Source of the DNA: Verrucomicrobiaceae bacterium
Lineage (GTDB): Bacteria; Verrucomicrobiota; Verrucomicrobiia; Verrucomicrobiales; Verrucomicrobiaceae
Assembly: GCA_015075365.1 (NCBI GenBank)
Contig: JABTUN010000001.1
Coordinates: forward strand, 1,178,001 to 1,242,000
Length of the DNA stretch: 64,000 nt
Direction: 5' to 3'
Part shown: positions 49,593 to 60,441 of the stretch, in pieces
Layout: each line of letters begins with the position of its first letter
How positions within the stretch are numbered: the stretch's first letter is position 1
Made by a program: the position numbers and the translations under genes
Notes under the pieces: model-generated
Seen by the model: the letters and a program-made list of their open reading frames with translations, nothing else
The model's database searches: none
What the model was told of the DNA's origin: nothing

Positions 49593-49613
49593 GGTTCCAG
49601 GGACGCGTTTCAC

Positions 49614-49704
49614 GGTTCAGGTTTCAGGTTTCAGGTTTCAGGTTTCAGGTTTCAGGTTTCACGTTCCAAGTTCCAAGTTCCAAGTTCCAAGTTCCAAGTT
49701 TCAG
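49614..49704. repeat. Heptamer tandem repeat (GTTTCAG / GTTCCAA), 13 units
   Basis: Thirteen 7-bp units follow each other without gaps: seven of the GTTTCAG kind (first slightly altered, last ending C), five of GTTCCAA, and one more GTTTCAG. The two sub-arrays differ by fixed changes, so each has expanded on its own. It begins 22 bp after the RGG gene stop. A degraded, inverted relative lies at 56805-56890 next to the second hairpin element. Confidence 0.92.
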
Positions 49705-49766
49705 GAGATGGGACGCTGAGCCGGTTCGCCGGAGGCATGACATGGCTTCGTTGTGGCGGTGATCCT

Positions 49767-49933
49767 TAGACCGTTTCTCAAAAAGAATGTCTGAAATGAC
49801 CGGCGGGCGCGGCGGCTTCAGTGGCAAGGAAAGAGCGAGGAGGCTATTGGAACAATAGCTGACGAGCGAATGACGCCGCCAATGGGGCTGCCCCGCCGCC
49901 GGGAATCTGACAGACATTTTGAGAACCGGTCTA
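49767..49933. mobile_element. Inverted-repeat element with triloop hairpin, copy 1 (MITE-like)
   Basis: 167 bp bounded by inverted repeats: left TAGACCGTTTCTCAAAA with TGTCTG close behind, right (reverse complement) TAGACCGGTTCTCAAAA plus TGTCTG. No gene is inside. The interior contains hairpin GCTATTG-GAA-CAATAGC at 49843-49859 with a three-base loop, GGGG-CTG-CCCC further right, and larger GC arms (GGCGGC with GCCGCC). Flanking bases are ATCCT and GACCT, so a target duplication is at best degenerate. The ends match the element at 56891-57171, the interior does not. Confidence 0.78.
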
Positions 49934-56011: not shown

Positions 56012-56194
56012 CTTTCACACATCAGCTCCCGCGGCGTGCCGCCGGGTTTTCAGCCTGGGCGGGCAAGCCGCCGGCTGAGCCGGAACGACCAGGGAACTCT
56101 GCGGGGCTCCTTCACCCTGACCTCTGACCTCTCACGTCTCCCTTCCATCTTCTTCACCACCAACCCGCCGCGACAGGAGTCGTGGACGACGACC

Positions 56195-56782
56195 ATGCCC
56201 TTTGATCCCAACCTGCCCCAAGAAAACACGCCCGTGGATGCCGTGCAGATGCGCGGCCAGCTCAACGGCCTGAAAGACCTCATCGATGCCGTGGGCTCCA
56301 TCACCGCCGTGGTGGTGGATGCGGTGATCTCCCTGCCGCCGGGAGATCCGGCGACGGTTTCCATTTCCCTCACCGGCACGACGCTGCATTTCACCTTTGG
56401 CATTCCAGAAGGCCAGACAGGCCCGCAGGGCATGCCGGGCAATGATGGCGGGCCGGGCCCGGTGGGGCCGCAGGGGCCGCCCTTTGCGCAGGCGGTGGTG
56501 GACGCGGTGAACACCCTGCCGCCCGGCTCCCCGGCATCCGTGGGCGTGAACTTTGACGGGACGCATGTGCGCTTCACCTTCGAGATCCCGCAGGGTTACG
56601 AAGGCCCCGCTGGCGCGCAGGGAGAGCCCGGGGAGGTGAGCCAGGCGCAGCTCGACACCGCCATCAGCGGCACGAGCCCGAACACAAACAACGTGGGCAC
56701 GCTGGACACGCCCTTTGGCGATCCGGACATGGAGGCGCTGCGCCAGAAGCTCAATGAGCTGATCCTGAACGGGCGGCGGTGA
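56195..56782 (+). CDS. Collagen-like, tail-fibre-type protein
   Basis: 195 residues from the ATG at 56195. Two copies of one unit are visible: VVVDAVISLPPGDPATVSIS with TTLHFTFGIPEGQTGPQG, and AVVDAVNTLPPGSPASVGVN with THVRFTFEIPQGYEGPAG. Each pairs a small beta domain with a short collagen-like G-x-y run, the first extended (GPQGMPGNDGGPGPVGPQG). Such designs trimerise and occur in phage tail fibres and bacterial surface filaments. There is no signal peptide, which suits a tail-like particle or contractile system. The C-terminus is helical (DPDMEALRQKLNELIL). Confidence 0.75.
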   Translation: MPFDPNLPQENTPVDAVQMRGQLNGLKDLIDAVGSITAVVVDAVISLPPGDPATVSISLTGTTLHFTFGIPEGQTGPQGMPGNDGGPGPVGPQGPPFAQAVVDAVNTLPPGSPASVGVNFDGTHVRFTFEIPQGYEGPAGAQGEPGEVSQAQLDTAISGTSPNTNNVGTLDTPFGDPDMEALRQKLNELILNGRR

Positions 56783-56804: not shown

Positions 56805-56890
56805 TCACGTTTCAAGTTTACTGTTTCACGAAACCTGAACCGGTCCCCCGCCACAGGCGAAGCCCAACTTGGAACCTGAAACCTGAAACT
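56805..56890. repeat. Degenerate GTTTCA-type repeat beside the hairpin element
   Basis: Short scattered units CGTTTCA, CGTTTCA, GTTTACT, GTTTCAC on the left and, inverted, GGAACCTGAAACCTGAAACT on the right surround a central GC stretch, giving a loose palindrome. These are the same heptamer kinds as the array at 49614-49704, which also stands just before a hairpin element. The last five bases, AAACT, are repeated right after that element. Confidence 0.6.
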
Positions 56891-57171
56891 TAGACCGGTT
56901 CTCGAAAAGAATGTCTGATTCGAAGGAGGCTGAAAGCCTCCAGGAATCCAGCCCAGGGTTGGAGTGGCGAAGCCACGCAAACCCTGGGTGTGCCACGAGT
57001 AAAACCCGGCGCTCTGACAGAGCGCAGGAGAAGCTGCGAACGTTCTCCCGCACTCTTTCAGAGTGCTGCGATCCTTCCTGACACGAACCCAGGCTCTACG
57101 AGCCTGGGCTGGACTCCCAAGGGCCTTTCAGGCCCGTAGGGTAAATGACAAACATTCTGAGAACCGGTCTA
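56891..57171. mobile_element. Inverted-repeat element made of seven mini-hairpins, copy 2 (MITE-like)
   Basis: 281 bp with ends TAGACCGGTTCTC...GAGAACCGGTCTA as terminal inverted repeats (13 bp perfect, more with gaps) and a perfect 5-bp direct repeat AAACT on both sides (56886-56890, 57172-57176). No gene inside. The interior is a chain of hairpins: GGAGGCT-GAA-AGCCTCC, CCCAGGGTT...AACCCTGGG enclosing GTGGC-GAA-GCCAC, GCGCTCT-GAC-AGAGCGC, GGAGAA...TTCTCC, GCACTCT-TTC-AGAGTGC, CCCAGGCTC-TAC-GAGCCTGGG and GGGCCT-TTC-AGGCCC. Nearly all loops are three bases, with GAA on the plus strand in the left half and on the minus strand in the right half. Confidence 0.85.
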
Positions 57172-57184
57172 AAACTCCCCTCCC

Positions 57185-58021
57185 CTACCCCGTCACCGCC
57201 CAGAGCATCTTCACCGCCTGCACGGCGGCTTTGACGTGGTGGACGCGGAAGATCTGCGCGCCGCGGGTCATGCCGGCGGCGATGCAGGCGATGGTGCCGG
57301 GGTCGCGTTCCACGGCGGGGACGCCCAGGACATCGCCGATGACGGTTTTGCGGGAGACGGGGAGCAGGATGGGCCGCCCGAAGCGGTGGAGGCGCTCCAG
57401 ATCGCGGTAGATGGTGAGGTTGTCCTCCCGCTGCTTGGCGAAGTCGATGCCGGGATCGAGGATGATGCTCTCACGCGGCAGGCCGACGCTTTCGGCCATG
57501 ACGAGGCGCTGCTCAAAGAAATGATCGAGCGTGTCCATGATGTTTTCATAGCTCACATGTGTGTGGGGCACCTTGGGGCGGCCGACGCTGTGCATGATGA
57601 GGAGGGCGGCGCCGTGCTCGGCGCAGAGCTTCGCATTGAAGGCGTCCGGCAGGCCGCTGATGTCATTGATGATGTCCCCGCCCAGCGGCAGCACCCCGGC
57701 GATGACATCGCTGCGCCAGGTGTTGATGGAGAGCAGCGGCGCGTTGAAGCGCGCCTTCAACTCCGGCCATTTTTCAAGGAAGGGCCGCAGGCGGTCGATC
57801 TCCTCGTCCACGCCGATGGCCTCCCGGTTCGTGCGGGCGCTCTCCGCGCCGATGTCGATGATGTCCGCGCCTTCGCGGAGCTGCTGCTCCGCCTGGGCGA
57901 GCGCGGCGGCGGGATCGAGCGTGCCATCGCCGCAAAAGGAGTCGTCATTGATGTTCACGATGCCCATGACCAGCGGGCGGCGGGGAAATTCGACGGTTTG
58001 CTGACGGGCGCGGAGGAGCAT
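57185..58021 (-). CDS. folP: Dihydropteroate synthase
   Basis: 278 residues from the ATG at 58021 (MLLRARQQTVEFPRRP); the open frame runs further upstream but without family similarity. LVMGIVNINDDSFCGDG is the first substrate loop, IIDIGAESART the second, GGDIINDISGLPD the pterin-pocket strand, DPGIDFAKQREDN the fourth block and PILLPVSRKTVIG the late SRK loop. It joins p-aminobenzoate to dihydropterin pyrophosphate in folate synthesis. NINDDSF differs from the common NVTPDSF but keeps the Asn and Asp-Ser-Phe. It stands alone, 13 bp from the hairpin element. Confidence 0.92.
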   Translation of the reverse strand: MLLRARQQTVEFPRRPLVMGIVNINDDSFCGDGTLDPAAALAQAEQQLREGADIIDIGAESARTNREAIGVDEEIDRLRPFLEKWPELKARFNAPLLSINTWRSDVIAGVLPLGGDIINDISGLPDAFNAKLCAEHGAALLIMHSVGRPKVPHTHVSYENIMDTLDHFFEQRLVMAESVGLPRESIILDPGIDFAKQREDNLTIYRDLERLHRFGRPILLPVSRKTVIGDVLGVPAVERDPGTIACIAAGMTRGAQIFRVHHVKAAVQAVKMLWAVTG

Positions 58022-58161
58022 GATGGATGGCGGGCATGTACCGCGTGCCGGTGCGCTGTCCAGTCCGCCGTTGCACCCCGCGTGCGCAGGCCGCGCCGGG
58101 GCAGTGGATTTCACAGGTGACAGGGCGCGCCCGCGTCTGGTAATATTCAATCCATCGCGCC

Positions 58162-60441
58162 ATGAAAACGCCTGCCTTCCCTTCCGTGTATGCACGAGGC
58201 TCCGGCCGCGTGTTTGTGATGGCTCTCAGCATGCTGGTGATGCTGTGCCCCTGGATGAAGACCCCGGCGGCGGAGGTCTTTGCGGCGAGCAGTCATGGCG
58301 ACCTGTTTGCCTTTGATGGCTCCACCGGGCAGACGTTGATGTTCCTGCCGTTTGACAACAGCCTCGCCAAGGCCGCCGGCATCGGCTTCCGCACACGCGA
58401 CAATTTCTGGGTGGTGGACACGCAGGACCCGGCCGGGCAGCGGAAGGTGGCCTCGTATGGCTACACGGCGGAGGATGGCTGGGGCAAGCGGCTGGAGGAT
58501 GCCCGCTCCGGCCCGGCGCCGAACATCACAAACCCCTACGGCGCGGCGATCTGGCAGGGGATCTTTTGGACCGTCGGGTATGGCAGCCACAGCCTGTGGG
58601 CCTATTCGCATGTGGGCGAGGTGGCCGCCGGTGGTGGCCTCTATTTGCCACGCATCTTTGGCGGGCAGGCGAAGAACCTGGGCGTTGACGACAGCTTCTC
58701 CCTTCCCGCCTACATCGCCTTCAGCGCGCTGGACGGGCGGCGCGCGATCACGCGCTTTGGCGATGGCTTGCTCATCGCGGTGGGCGGGACGACGGAGAGG
58801 CGCATCAACTACGGTTTCGGCATTCCGCAGCCGGGCGTGGCCTTTGACTACACCGGCAGTGATCCAGTGGAGACGGGCACGCGCCACTCGCTGGTCTATG
58901 TCGTGGACTCGCGGTCGTCCGCGCAGCGGGTGATCCGCTATGATGCGGTGACGGGCCTGCCCTTTGGGGCCAATCCGGCCAACCGCGCCGATCCCACCTT
59001 CATCCCGGCGGGCACCGGGGGCATGACCGCCTTCACCGGGCCGATCGTCATCGACCCGCTGACCGGCGACATCTTTGTGACCGGCTCCAACACCAATGGC
59101 GGCGGCTTTGGCGGCGCGCTGTGCCGCTTTGACAAGGACGGGAACCCCAAGGGCCTCGGCAACAGCAACACCAGCGCCTTCATCGCCGCGCTGGGGCAGC
59201 CCTGCCAGCATCTGGCGATCCGCCCGTATGTGGACCCGAAGCCCTTCGCCGGCGGCGGCACCTGGCAGCACAGCCTGACGCCGAGCAGCGCGGGCTGGGC
59301 GGTGGCGGTGCAGGAATTCGTCGGCACCGGGCCGCTGGACGGCGCGATCGTGCAGGTGAGGCCGGCCACGATCACGGAGGAGATCAACATCGGCGGCGCG
59401 GGCAGCCGCACGATCACGCTGCAAACAAGGACCGCCGTCAACGTGGGTGACCCGAACGTGTACAACCTCGGCCCCATCGTGGCGAAGGAGGGCGGCACGC
59501 TGCTGGTCGATCCCTCGGTGACGCTGTCGGTCGCCGGCGATGTGGTCGCCTCCATCGGGGGCAAGATCGAACTCAGCCCCGCCAGCAGCATCGAGCTCCC
59601 GCTTGCATCTCTGACCGCGGCGGCAGGAGGAGTGGTCAAGGGCATGGGCTCCATCCTCGCCAAGGCGACCAAGGCCCTCAGCGGCGGCACGCTGGCGCCC
59701 GGTGCCTCGCCCGGGCAGCTCACGCTGCAAAGTGATCTGCACATGGACGCCGGCTCGCACCTGGAGATCGAGCTCGCCGGCCTCACGCAGGGTACGGGGC
59801 ATGATTTCCTCGATGTGCAGAACTCCGCCAGCGGCCAGTGCGTGCTGCTCGGCTCCCTGGATGTGAAGGTGCTGCCGCCGCTCGCCAGCAGCATCACGGC
59901 CGCGAACACCTTCACGATCCTGTCCGCCGACTCGGCGGTGGTGCTGCAGTGCTCGAACCTGCAATCCGGCCGCGTCACGACGGTGGATGGCATGGGCAGC
60001 TTCGCCGTCCAACTGGCCAACAGCGATCATGATGTCGTCCTGGGTGACTACCAGTCGCTGCCGCATCCATGTCCCGCGTGGGCCACCAGTTTCGGCCTCA
60101 GCGGCGGGGACACCGCGCTGGACGCGGACGCGGATGGTGATGGACGAAAAAACCTGGAGGAGTTCGCCTTTAACACGAACCCCGCCACGGGCGCGCAGGG
60201 GACGGTCTTTGCCAGCACGCGCCAGGGGAATGACGTGGTCGTCAGCTTCACCCGCCGCCGCACCGGGACCAGCCGCCTCAGCTATGTCATCGAAACCTCG
60301 ACCAGCCTCACCGGCTGGGCGCCGCTGGCCGCGCCCTGGGCCATGCAGGTCACGCCCGTGGACGCAAGCTTCGAGACCGTCACCCTCACCGCGCCCGCCA
60401 GCGGGCAGCACTTTGTGCGCGTGCAGGTGACCGGAGAGTGA
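58162..60441 (+). CDS. Large secreted protein with type-3-like Asp repeat near the C-terminus
   Basis: 759 residues with a signal peptide (hydrophobic VFVMALSMLVMLCPW, cleavage near PAAEVFA). The first 390 residues look like a beta-propeller (SSHGDLFAFDGSTGQTL, FWVVDTQDPAGQ, VYVVDSRSSAQRVIRYDAVTG). The middle (about 390-640) is beta-helix material, with GTLAPGASPGQLTLQSD as in autotransporter-repeat proteins. Next comes LDADADGDGRKNLEEFAFNT, the calcium-type Asp motif common before the C-terminal domain of verrucomicrobial secreted proteins. No PEP-CTERM tail is present. Function unknown, probably extracellular. Confidence 0.75.
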   Translation: MKTPAFPSVYARGSGRVFVMALSMLVMLCPWMKTPAAEVFAASSHGDLFAFDGSTGQTLMFLPFDNSLAKAAGIGFRTRDNFWVVDTQDPAGQRKVASYGYTAEDGWGKRLEDARSGPAPNITNPYGAAIWQGIFWTVGYGSHSLWAYSHVGEVAAGGGLYLPRIFGGQAKNLGVDDSFSLPAYIAFSALDGRRAITRFGDGLLIAVGGTTERRINYGFGIPQPGVAFDYTGSDPVETGTRHSLVYVVDSRSSAQRVIRYDAVTGLPFGANPANRADPTFIPAGTGGMTAFTGPIVIDPLTGDIFVTGSNTNGGGFGGALCRFDKDGNPKGLGNSNTSAFIAALGQPCQHLAIRPYVDPKPFAGGGTWQHSLTPSSAGWAVAVQEFVGTGPLDGAIVQVRPATITEEINIGGAGSRTITLQTRTAVNVGDPNVYNLGPIVAKEGGTLLVDPSVTLSVAGDVVASIGGKIELSPASSIELPLASLTAAAGGVVKGMGSILAKATKALSGGTLAPGASPGQLTLQSDLHMDAGSHLEIELAGLTQGTGHDFLDVQNSASGQCVLLGSLDVKVLPPLASSITAANTFTILSADSAVVLQCSNLQSGRVTTVDGMGSFAVQLANSDHDVVLGDYQSLPHPCPAWATSFGLSGGDTALDADADGDGRKNLEEFAFNTNPATGAQGTVFASTRQGNDVVVSFTRRRTGTSRLSYVIETSTSLTGWAPLAAPWAMQVTPVDASFETVTLTAPASGQHFVRVQVTGE

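Follow-up and report, generated by a model that had tools for sequence, protein, structure and literature searches.

A probable composite miniature transposon in Verrucomicrobiaceae: IS630-type ends around a REPIN-like pair of three-hairpin units

The 281-bp element and its neighbours

The window, that is, the whole stretch of 64,000 nucleotides of a Verrucomicrobiaceae genome analysed here, contains a 281-bp element that is bounded by terminal inverted repeats and comprises seven hairpins with the loops, in order, GAA, GAA, GAC, 10 nt, TTC, TAC and TTC. The element is located between the 3' ends of two convergent genes, one encoding a collagen-like protein (56036-56782; 18.8 bits to Collagen, under the cut-off of 27.2) and the other, on the minus strand, a pterin-binding enzyme (57185-58195; PF00809, 205.2 bits) that, by reading, is of the folP type. 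The arms at 56890-56915 and 57147-57172 are 81% complementary, and AAACT flanks the element on both sides. No dedicated gene lies within the 281 bp, which mechanical open reading frames traverse. A preliminary description of this DNA had reported the inverted-repeat element with its seven hairpins and their loops, the lack of coding content, AAACT on both flanks and a GCGAAGC mini-hairpin in one unit, all of which is borne out by the sequence, with GCGAAGC residing in hairpin B. The features of the element, along with a second element that has similar ends, are as follows.

56891-57171, no strand: the whole element, 281 bp, probably composite, an inverted pair of three-hairpin units enclosed by IS630-type ends
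56891-56915, plus: left terminal inverted repeat, TAGACCGGTTCTCGAAAAGAATGTC, starting with the presumed TA target copy
57147-57171, minus: right terminal inverted repeat, closed by the presumed second copy of TA
56886-56890, no strand: left copy of AAACT, probably an accidental 5-bp flanking repeat; the right copy is at 57172-57176
56925-57038, plus: left unit of three hairpins, A-B-C, scoring 100.4 bits against the covariance model R1, which was partly built from it
57037-57136, minus: right three-hairpin unit, A'-B'-C' in the minus-strand reading, 84.3 bits to R1, likewise partly built from it
56925-56941, plus: hairpin A, loop GAA, followed by AGGA on the 3' side (sequence, RNA fold, alignment)
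56952-56988, plus: hairpin B, CCCAGGGTT...AACCCTGGG, with the inner GCGAAGC (sequence, RNA fold)
57009-57025, plus: hairpin C, loop GAC, followed by AGGAG on the 3' side (sequence, DNA fold, alignment)
57027-57048, no strand: central stem GGAGAA / TTCTCC with a 10-nt loop (RNA and DNA folds)
57050-57066, minus: hairpin C', loop TTC (sequence, DNA fold)
57088-57108, minus: hairpin B', loop TAC (sequence, RNA fold)
57121-57135, minus: hairpin A', loop TTC (sequence; the RNA fold pairs the inner six base pairs)
49767-49933, no strand: 167-bp MITE with like ends and an unrelated interior, outside the 281-bp element (end pattern)

The element carries far more structure than expected by chance, with a predicted folding energy of -149.9 kcal/mol as RNA (z -10.2) and -77.3 as DNA (z -8.8), values that none of the 200 shuffles equalled in either case. 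Hairpins C and C' are also able to pair across the central stem as a single long stem.

The three-hairpin unit and its link to Y1 transposase genes

The left half of the element and the reverse complement of the right half represent one and the same unit of about 110 nt, arranged as an inverted pair. From the outside in, the unit consists of hairpin A, (A/G)GGA, hairpin B, hairpin C and (A/G)GGAG, and the long hairpin B is framed by CAGCCCAGG...CCTGGG. The GT[AG]G foot is absent, and AGGAG / CTCCT stands beside the small hairpins instead; in some units, CTGA adjoins hairpin B on the opposite strand, but it is absent from the feet of A and C.

Nine half-units from the genome of the window and from G011 and G013 align, with compensatory change in 5 of the 6 pairs of stem A, and R1 was built on this alignment. 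In the window's own genome, R1 yields 14 strong matches (at least 48.5 bits), arranged as seven inverted pairs; another three matches are weak (20.0-27.9 bits). At E <= 0.001, there are matches in 37 of 56 genomes, the window's own included (28 of the 43 good-quality ones), and none in the remaining 19; the maximum is 54 matches per genome, with 64 candidates scored in each. When 92 units from 43 chosen sources are fitted to the R1 structure, in an alignment that includes the sequences from which R1 was built, 98.2% of the cells pair and 10 of the 18 pairs change two-sidedly, with a covariation score of 0.347 (0.134 in shuffles). None of 500 shuffles reaches the observed value for pairing, for two-sided change or for the covariation score, and when the partners are offset by one to three columns, pairing falls to 19-54%.

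The strong fold and the preservation of the stems through compensatory change would also be compatible with an RNA or DNA element under selection for a function, such as a terminator, an mRNA stabiliser or a binding site for a nucleoid protein, that is spread by transposons to the benefit of the host. The copies in the window and at C1:1718458 both lie between converging 3' ends of genes (judged, for the latter, by open reading frames only), which counts in favour of such a function; the copy on C4, however, is situated between divergent genes (again by open reading frames only), Rfam at the gathering score recognises only tRNA in the whole window and no family at the element, and covariation is equally predicted for the hairpin-recognised substrate of a Y1 protein. 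We regard a selected function of this kind as an improbable explanation.

Y1_Tnp (PF01797) was sought in 16 genomes picked for their R1 matches, with 247 matches, and in the window's own genome, with 8; the 38 loci scanned for R1 units comprise the best one or two per genome from the 16 genomes (30 of the 247) and all 8 of the own genome. Inverted R1 units bracket the Y1_Tnp gene in 12 of these 38 loci (E <= 0.001), always with a plus-strand unit before the gene and a minus-strand unit after it, another 6 loci have a unit on one side only, and 20 have no R1 unit at E <= 0.001 beside the gene. Both units reach at least 49 bits in 7 of the 12 bracketed loci and 25-39 bits in the other five, the weaker units beside Y1 genes (21-39 bits) having been found at a looser threshold than that used for the genome-wide counts. 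Bracketing was also seen for two further genes, one of which is broken, in regions chosen because R1 and Y1 coordinates coincided (L207, L210). Under random placement, in a calculation that ignores the clustering of units, about 0.7 of the 247 genes would be expected to have a unit no more than 300 bp away, and about 0.0002 to be bracketed. Given the inverted bracketing, such a REPtron-like locus looks like a pair that has been split open by a gene.

The spread of R1, the compensatory changes in the stems and the bracketing of Y1 (IS200/IS605/RAYT-like) genes jointly identify the hairpin chain as REPIN-like. The Y1 protein would recognise the unit through a CTCCT-like foot and the adjacent hairpin, in the reading of the other strand. 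As in the REPINs and BIMEs of RAYT (TnpA-REP) described in the relevant passages of PMC3116915 and PMC6006769, there are two inverted REP-like units and, in relatives, a flanked Y1 gene (REPtron). The differences lie in the three hairpins per unit of about 110 nt, in AGGAG / CTCCT in place of GT[AG]G, which, as defined in a passage of PMC6006769, is the foot at the hairpin of canonical REPs (those of subclass 2 TnpA-REP), and in the copy number: canonical REPs usually exceed 100 copies per genome, according to a passage of PMC2817692, in contrast to the 14 strong units in the window's genome and the maximum of 54 in any of the 56 genomes (64 candidates scored in each). 

The three Y1 proteins that were tested all score 63.5-66.0 bits against NF033573 (IS200/IS605 TnpA; NCBI cut-off 55) and at most 21 bits against NF047646 (REP transposases; cut-off 80), and one Y1 protein compared with solved structures matches transposases including that of ISHp608. 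The class 3 Y1 proteins, which have atypical flanking structures and resemble both the IS200/IS605 and the REP types, as outlined in a section of PMC6006769, are similar in this respect, and the unit-flanked Y1 proteins may belong near this class. However, the account of class 3 in that section gives a CnGA foot and a distribution mainly in Planctomycetes, Acidobacteria and Proteobacteria.

None of the 8 Y1 matches in the window's own genome has a strong unit beside it, and a single weak unit (27.9 bits) stands by a Y1 gene, beside C1:1692146. Another Y1 gene of this genome, at C2:1321993 (L087), has, by eye, inverted three-hairpin modules on both sides that belong to another sequence family; R1 gives no match to these modules.

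The IS630-type ends and the copies that carry them

Ends of the TAGACCGGTTCTC type occur four times in the window with at most 2 mismatches (0.57 expected), two of them terminating the 281-bp element and the other two the 167-bp element at 49767-49933. The preliminary description had proposed a search for further copies, and these exist: the 13-base TAGACCGGTTCTC, with at most 1 mismatch, is found 38 times in the own genome (3 times for the reversed-pattern control), and there are two further full copies of the element. Among the 30 loci retrieved from this genome, there are 19 distinct copies with paired ends, namely, 16 short ones with another interior (14 of 167 bp, one of 166 bp and one of 136 bp) and the three of 281 bp. 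Relatives of the 167-bp MITE, of 166-170 bp, are present in several other genomes.

Elements of other genomes with the same ends encode a DDE_3 transposase. A 1,129-bp element in G022:C16 is bounded by TAGACCGGTTCTC without mismatch and contains an unbroken frame of 346 aa that matches DDE_3; the Verrucomicrobiaceae MAG P8_D7_6 has 1,129-bp elements at two loci, and the one examined (L239) encodes a 344-aa DDE_3 protein (102.1 bits); and a copy of 839 bp in G010:C50 has a disrupted gene, the pieces of which match DDE_3 and HTH_23. A pattern scan of the named genomes locates these ends at 8 loci in three Verrucomicrobiaceae MAGs. This sharing of ends with DDE_3 elements in relatives suggests the IS630 group, so that the ends of the 281-bp element, judged by sequence, match those of an IS630-type insertion sequence. 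In the own assembly (6.9 Mb, 94.9% complete), the first piece of the G010 transposase has no match at E <= 1e-10, and the three DDE_3 matches have no such ends paired around them.

Target duplication of TA is established for the IS630 group, the DDE transposases of which act on double-stranded ends. TA is present at both ends in two of the three full copies, and the duplicated target is, most likely, TA. The preliminary description had taken AAACT for a target duplication, which the other copies do not support: a flush flanking repeat of 5 bp is found in one of the 19 paired-end copies of the own genome, that in the window, and the repeat amounts to 0-2 bp in the other 18. Because no copy but that in the window has a flush repeat of more than 2 bp, AAACT is probably an accident, to which an AAAC-rich flank perhaps contributed. 

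The distinction between ends and interior bears on two further suggestions made in that description. The proposal that the element folds as a single strand during its mobility agrees with the interior, which is built to fold and fits a substrate of the Y1/RAYT type, whereas the ends go with the DDE type. As for the anticipated transposase or RAYT with these ends, there is one of the IS630 type in relatives, whereas the RAYT-like one goes with the interior and not with the ends.

The three full copies in the own genome have unrelated flanks. The copy at C4:249839-250119 is identical to that in the window, and the copy at C1:1718458-1718738 differs solely in base 2, so that its left end reads TC instead of TA; a fourth copy, at C3:994167-994420, retains 93% identity over 6-265 of a 291-base query and has lost the right end. 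The near-identity of the 281-bp copies favours recent movement. Segmental duplication was considered as the source of the near-identical copies and is ruled out, given that the similarity between the window and C1 loci stops before the element; the flanks adjoining these two copies do not match despite the presence of paralogous genes nearby. When an empty site was sought, for the C4 locus alone, there was no relative with both flanks on one contig, and fragmented assemblies could hide such a site.

Two observations concern the neighbourhoods of these copies. Paralogous collagen-like genes (56036-56782 and L213:6415-7146; 60% amino acid identity) each have a 281-bp copy downstream, and a tyrosine recombinase (Phage_integrase and Phage_int_SAM_4; L214:1987-3000), possibly an integron-type integrase, is encoded beside the C3 copy.

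Like the bacterial MITEs of the IS630/Tc1-mariner type, the element is short, lacks a transposase gene, has the ends of DDE_3 elements with TA at both ends in two of the three full copies, and is present in three full copies at unrelated sites. Unlike such MITEs, it encloses a repeat unit of another kind that has its own link to a transposase, and the search of the own assembly yielded no autonomous element to match it. Bacterial MITEs commonly have palindromic interiors, and the element might accordingly be an ordinary IS630-type MITE whose interior became palindromic by chance or by a duplication within it and is unrelated to REP-type repeats. This explanation is very hard to reconcile with the homology of the interior to units that are present in dozens of genomes, where their ends are different or not recognisable, and that stand beside Y1 genes, and we assign it hardly any probability. 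The view of the preliminary description that this is no simple MITE thus holds, the ends and the hairpin chain being two things joined together.

One pair of units in several frames

All seven strong pairs of the own genome reside in transposon-like frames, four of them of the IS630 type, one of these without the right end, and three with GGTTCATCCG ends, which are unrelated to those of the IS630 type. The latter three form an element of about 360 bp:

C1:1713581, C1:2703125 and C4:339338 (L095, L097, L100): element of about 360 bp with GGTTCATCCGKGAAGT-like ends and the same core

The core of these copies is 82-83% identical to that in the window, and the homology between the two versions is clear from about hairpin A to hairpin A'; over the whole frame, the three copies are 97.8-98.9% identical to one another. 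Their flanks show a flush 8-bp direct repeat in one case, an out-of-register T run in another and nothing in the third. For single GGTTCATCCG ends in the own genome, no clear partner lies within about 1.5 kb, and the transposase was not found.

A further frame is represented in G017 (L219-L223), where six repeats of about 490 bp have both TAATACC...GGTATTA-like ends with the pair inside, and three longer partial copies of the frame also reach over the pair. In the 5 genomes that were scanned for it, the TAATACC frame has no match without the REPIN-like pair; sequence from outside the pair recurs only as short pieces. In 17 other pairs, from G001, G002, G011, G012, G013, G015, G027, G031 and G034, inspection by eye of the outer 75 bp revealed no such inverted ends; a G011 pair has a GGTTCATCCG-like end, with 3 mismatches, on one side only. 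Since the hairpin chain occurs with other ends or with no recognisable ones, the chain and the IS630-type ends are separate things.

A 169-bp element with IS630-type ends was also observed, at C4:523617-523785 (L117:1238-1406) and in G028 (L085:1504-1672). The two versions, from two species, are about 95% identical (8 mismatches), and they contain GTAG-footed hairpins as an inverted pair that, by its foot, looks like a canonical REPIN, which would make it a second REPIN in an IS630-type frame.

Taken together, these findings are best explained by a composite miniature transposon, in which IS630-type ends surround a REPIN-like pair that was captured by MITEs and is likely spread in trans, and we consider this explanation probable. 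The REPIN-like pair would have come to lie between IS630-type ends through Y1 transposition or by chance capture; an IS630-type transposase, supplied in trans, would then cut at the ends of the whole element, and the cut element would be pasted at TA dinucleotides with duplication of the TA. The hairpin pair is likely to ride within the MITE as a passenger. Both the movement itself and the capture of the pair by a MITE, as opposed to its construction inside one, are what we infer from this arrangement; no REPIN-less copy of the IS630-type frame was found that would show insertion into a pre-existing MITE. Because no Y1 gene with a strong unit beside it was found in the own assembly (94.9% complete), the pair may persist in this genome now only through its carriers.

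The roles of the two systems could also be reversed, with a Y1 transposase moving the pair and the IS630-type ends being bystanders, the pair having landed several times in resident MITEs. The pairs of several relatives that, by eye, share no inverted ends within 75 bp would be expected in that case, as would the units that bracket Y1 genes and the cores in two different frames of one genome. Yet the three 281-bp copies agree over their full length, both ends included, save for one base, and the three copies of about 360 bp are nearly identical across the frame as well; this full-length agreement suggests that frame and pair move together in the own genome, and movement of the pair by Y1 is accordingly unlikely, albeit less so than the other alternatives considered above.

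REPINs (PMC3116915) and GTAG repeats in PVC bacteria (PMC3733652) have already been described in passages of those papers, and REPs are known as targets of insertion sequences from parts of PMC1525189 and PMC8450116. ISPpu9-like insertion sequences that target REPs, treated in the same parts, resemble the present element in that IS elements and REP sequences are physically associated; there, however, the IS lies inside the REP, whereas here the REPIN-like pair lies inside transposon ends. Those passages of open-licence PMC papers that a literature search returned contain no recognised description of a REPIN inside a MITE. According to PMC6006769, a REP type usually has a single full-length transposase gene, and the loci do not seem to move as units.

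How REPs and REPINs persist and move is an open question on which the composite element bears. If the proposed composite is real, a REPIN-like pair carried by transposons of different chemistry, in more than one frame, has a second route of spreading, and REP populations without a cognate transposase are predicted. A broader proposition, which we advance tentatively and which could well prove wrong, is that REPIN-like repeats free themselves from their own Y1 transposase by entering, time and again, unrelated miniature transposons of the DDE type, as might be illustrated by at least three frames in two species and by the second, GTAG-footed pair in an IS630-type frame, and that such dual-system elements keep REP populations alive after the loss of the cognate transposase. 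The analysis further brings to light REPtron-like loci, probably of Verrucomicrobiaceae, in which the unit has an unusual build of three hairpins, and R1 can be used to find more of them.

A minor observation concerns the surroundings of the two window elements with IS630-type ends, both of which have short intergenic runs of ttcaggt / ttccaag-like repeats (49600-49710 and 56805-56890) close upstream.
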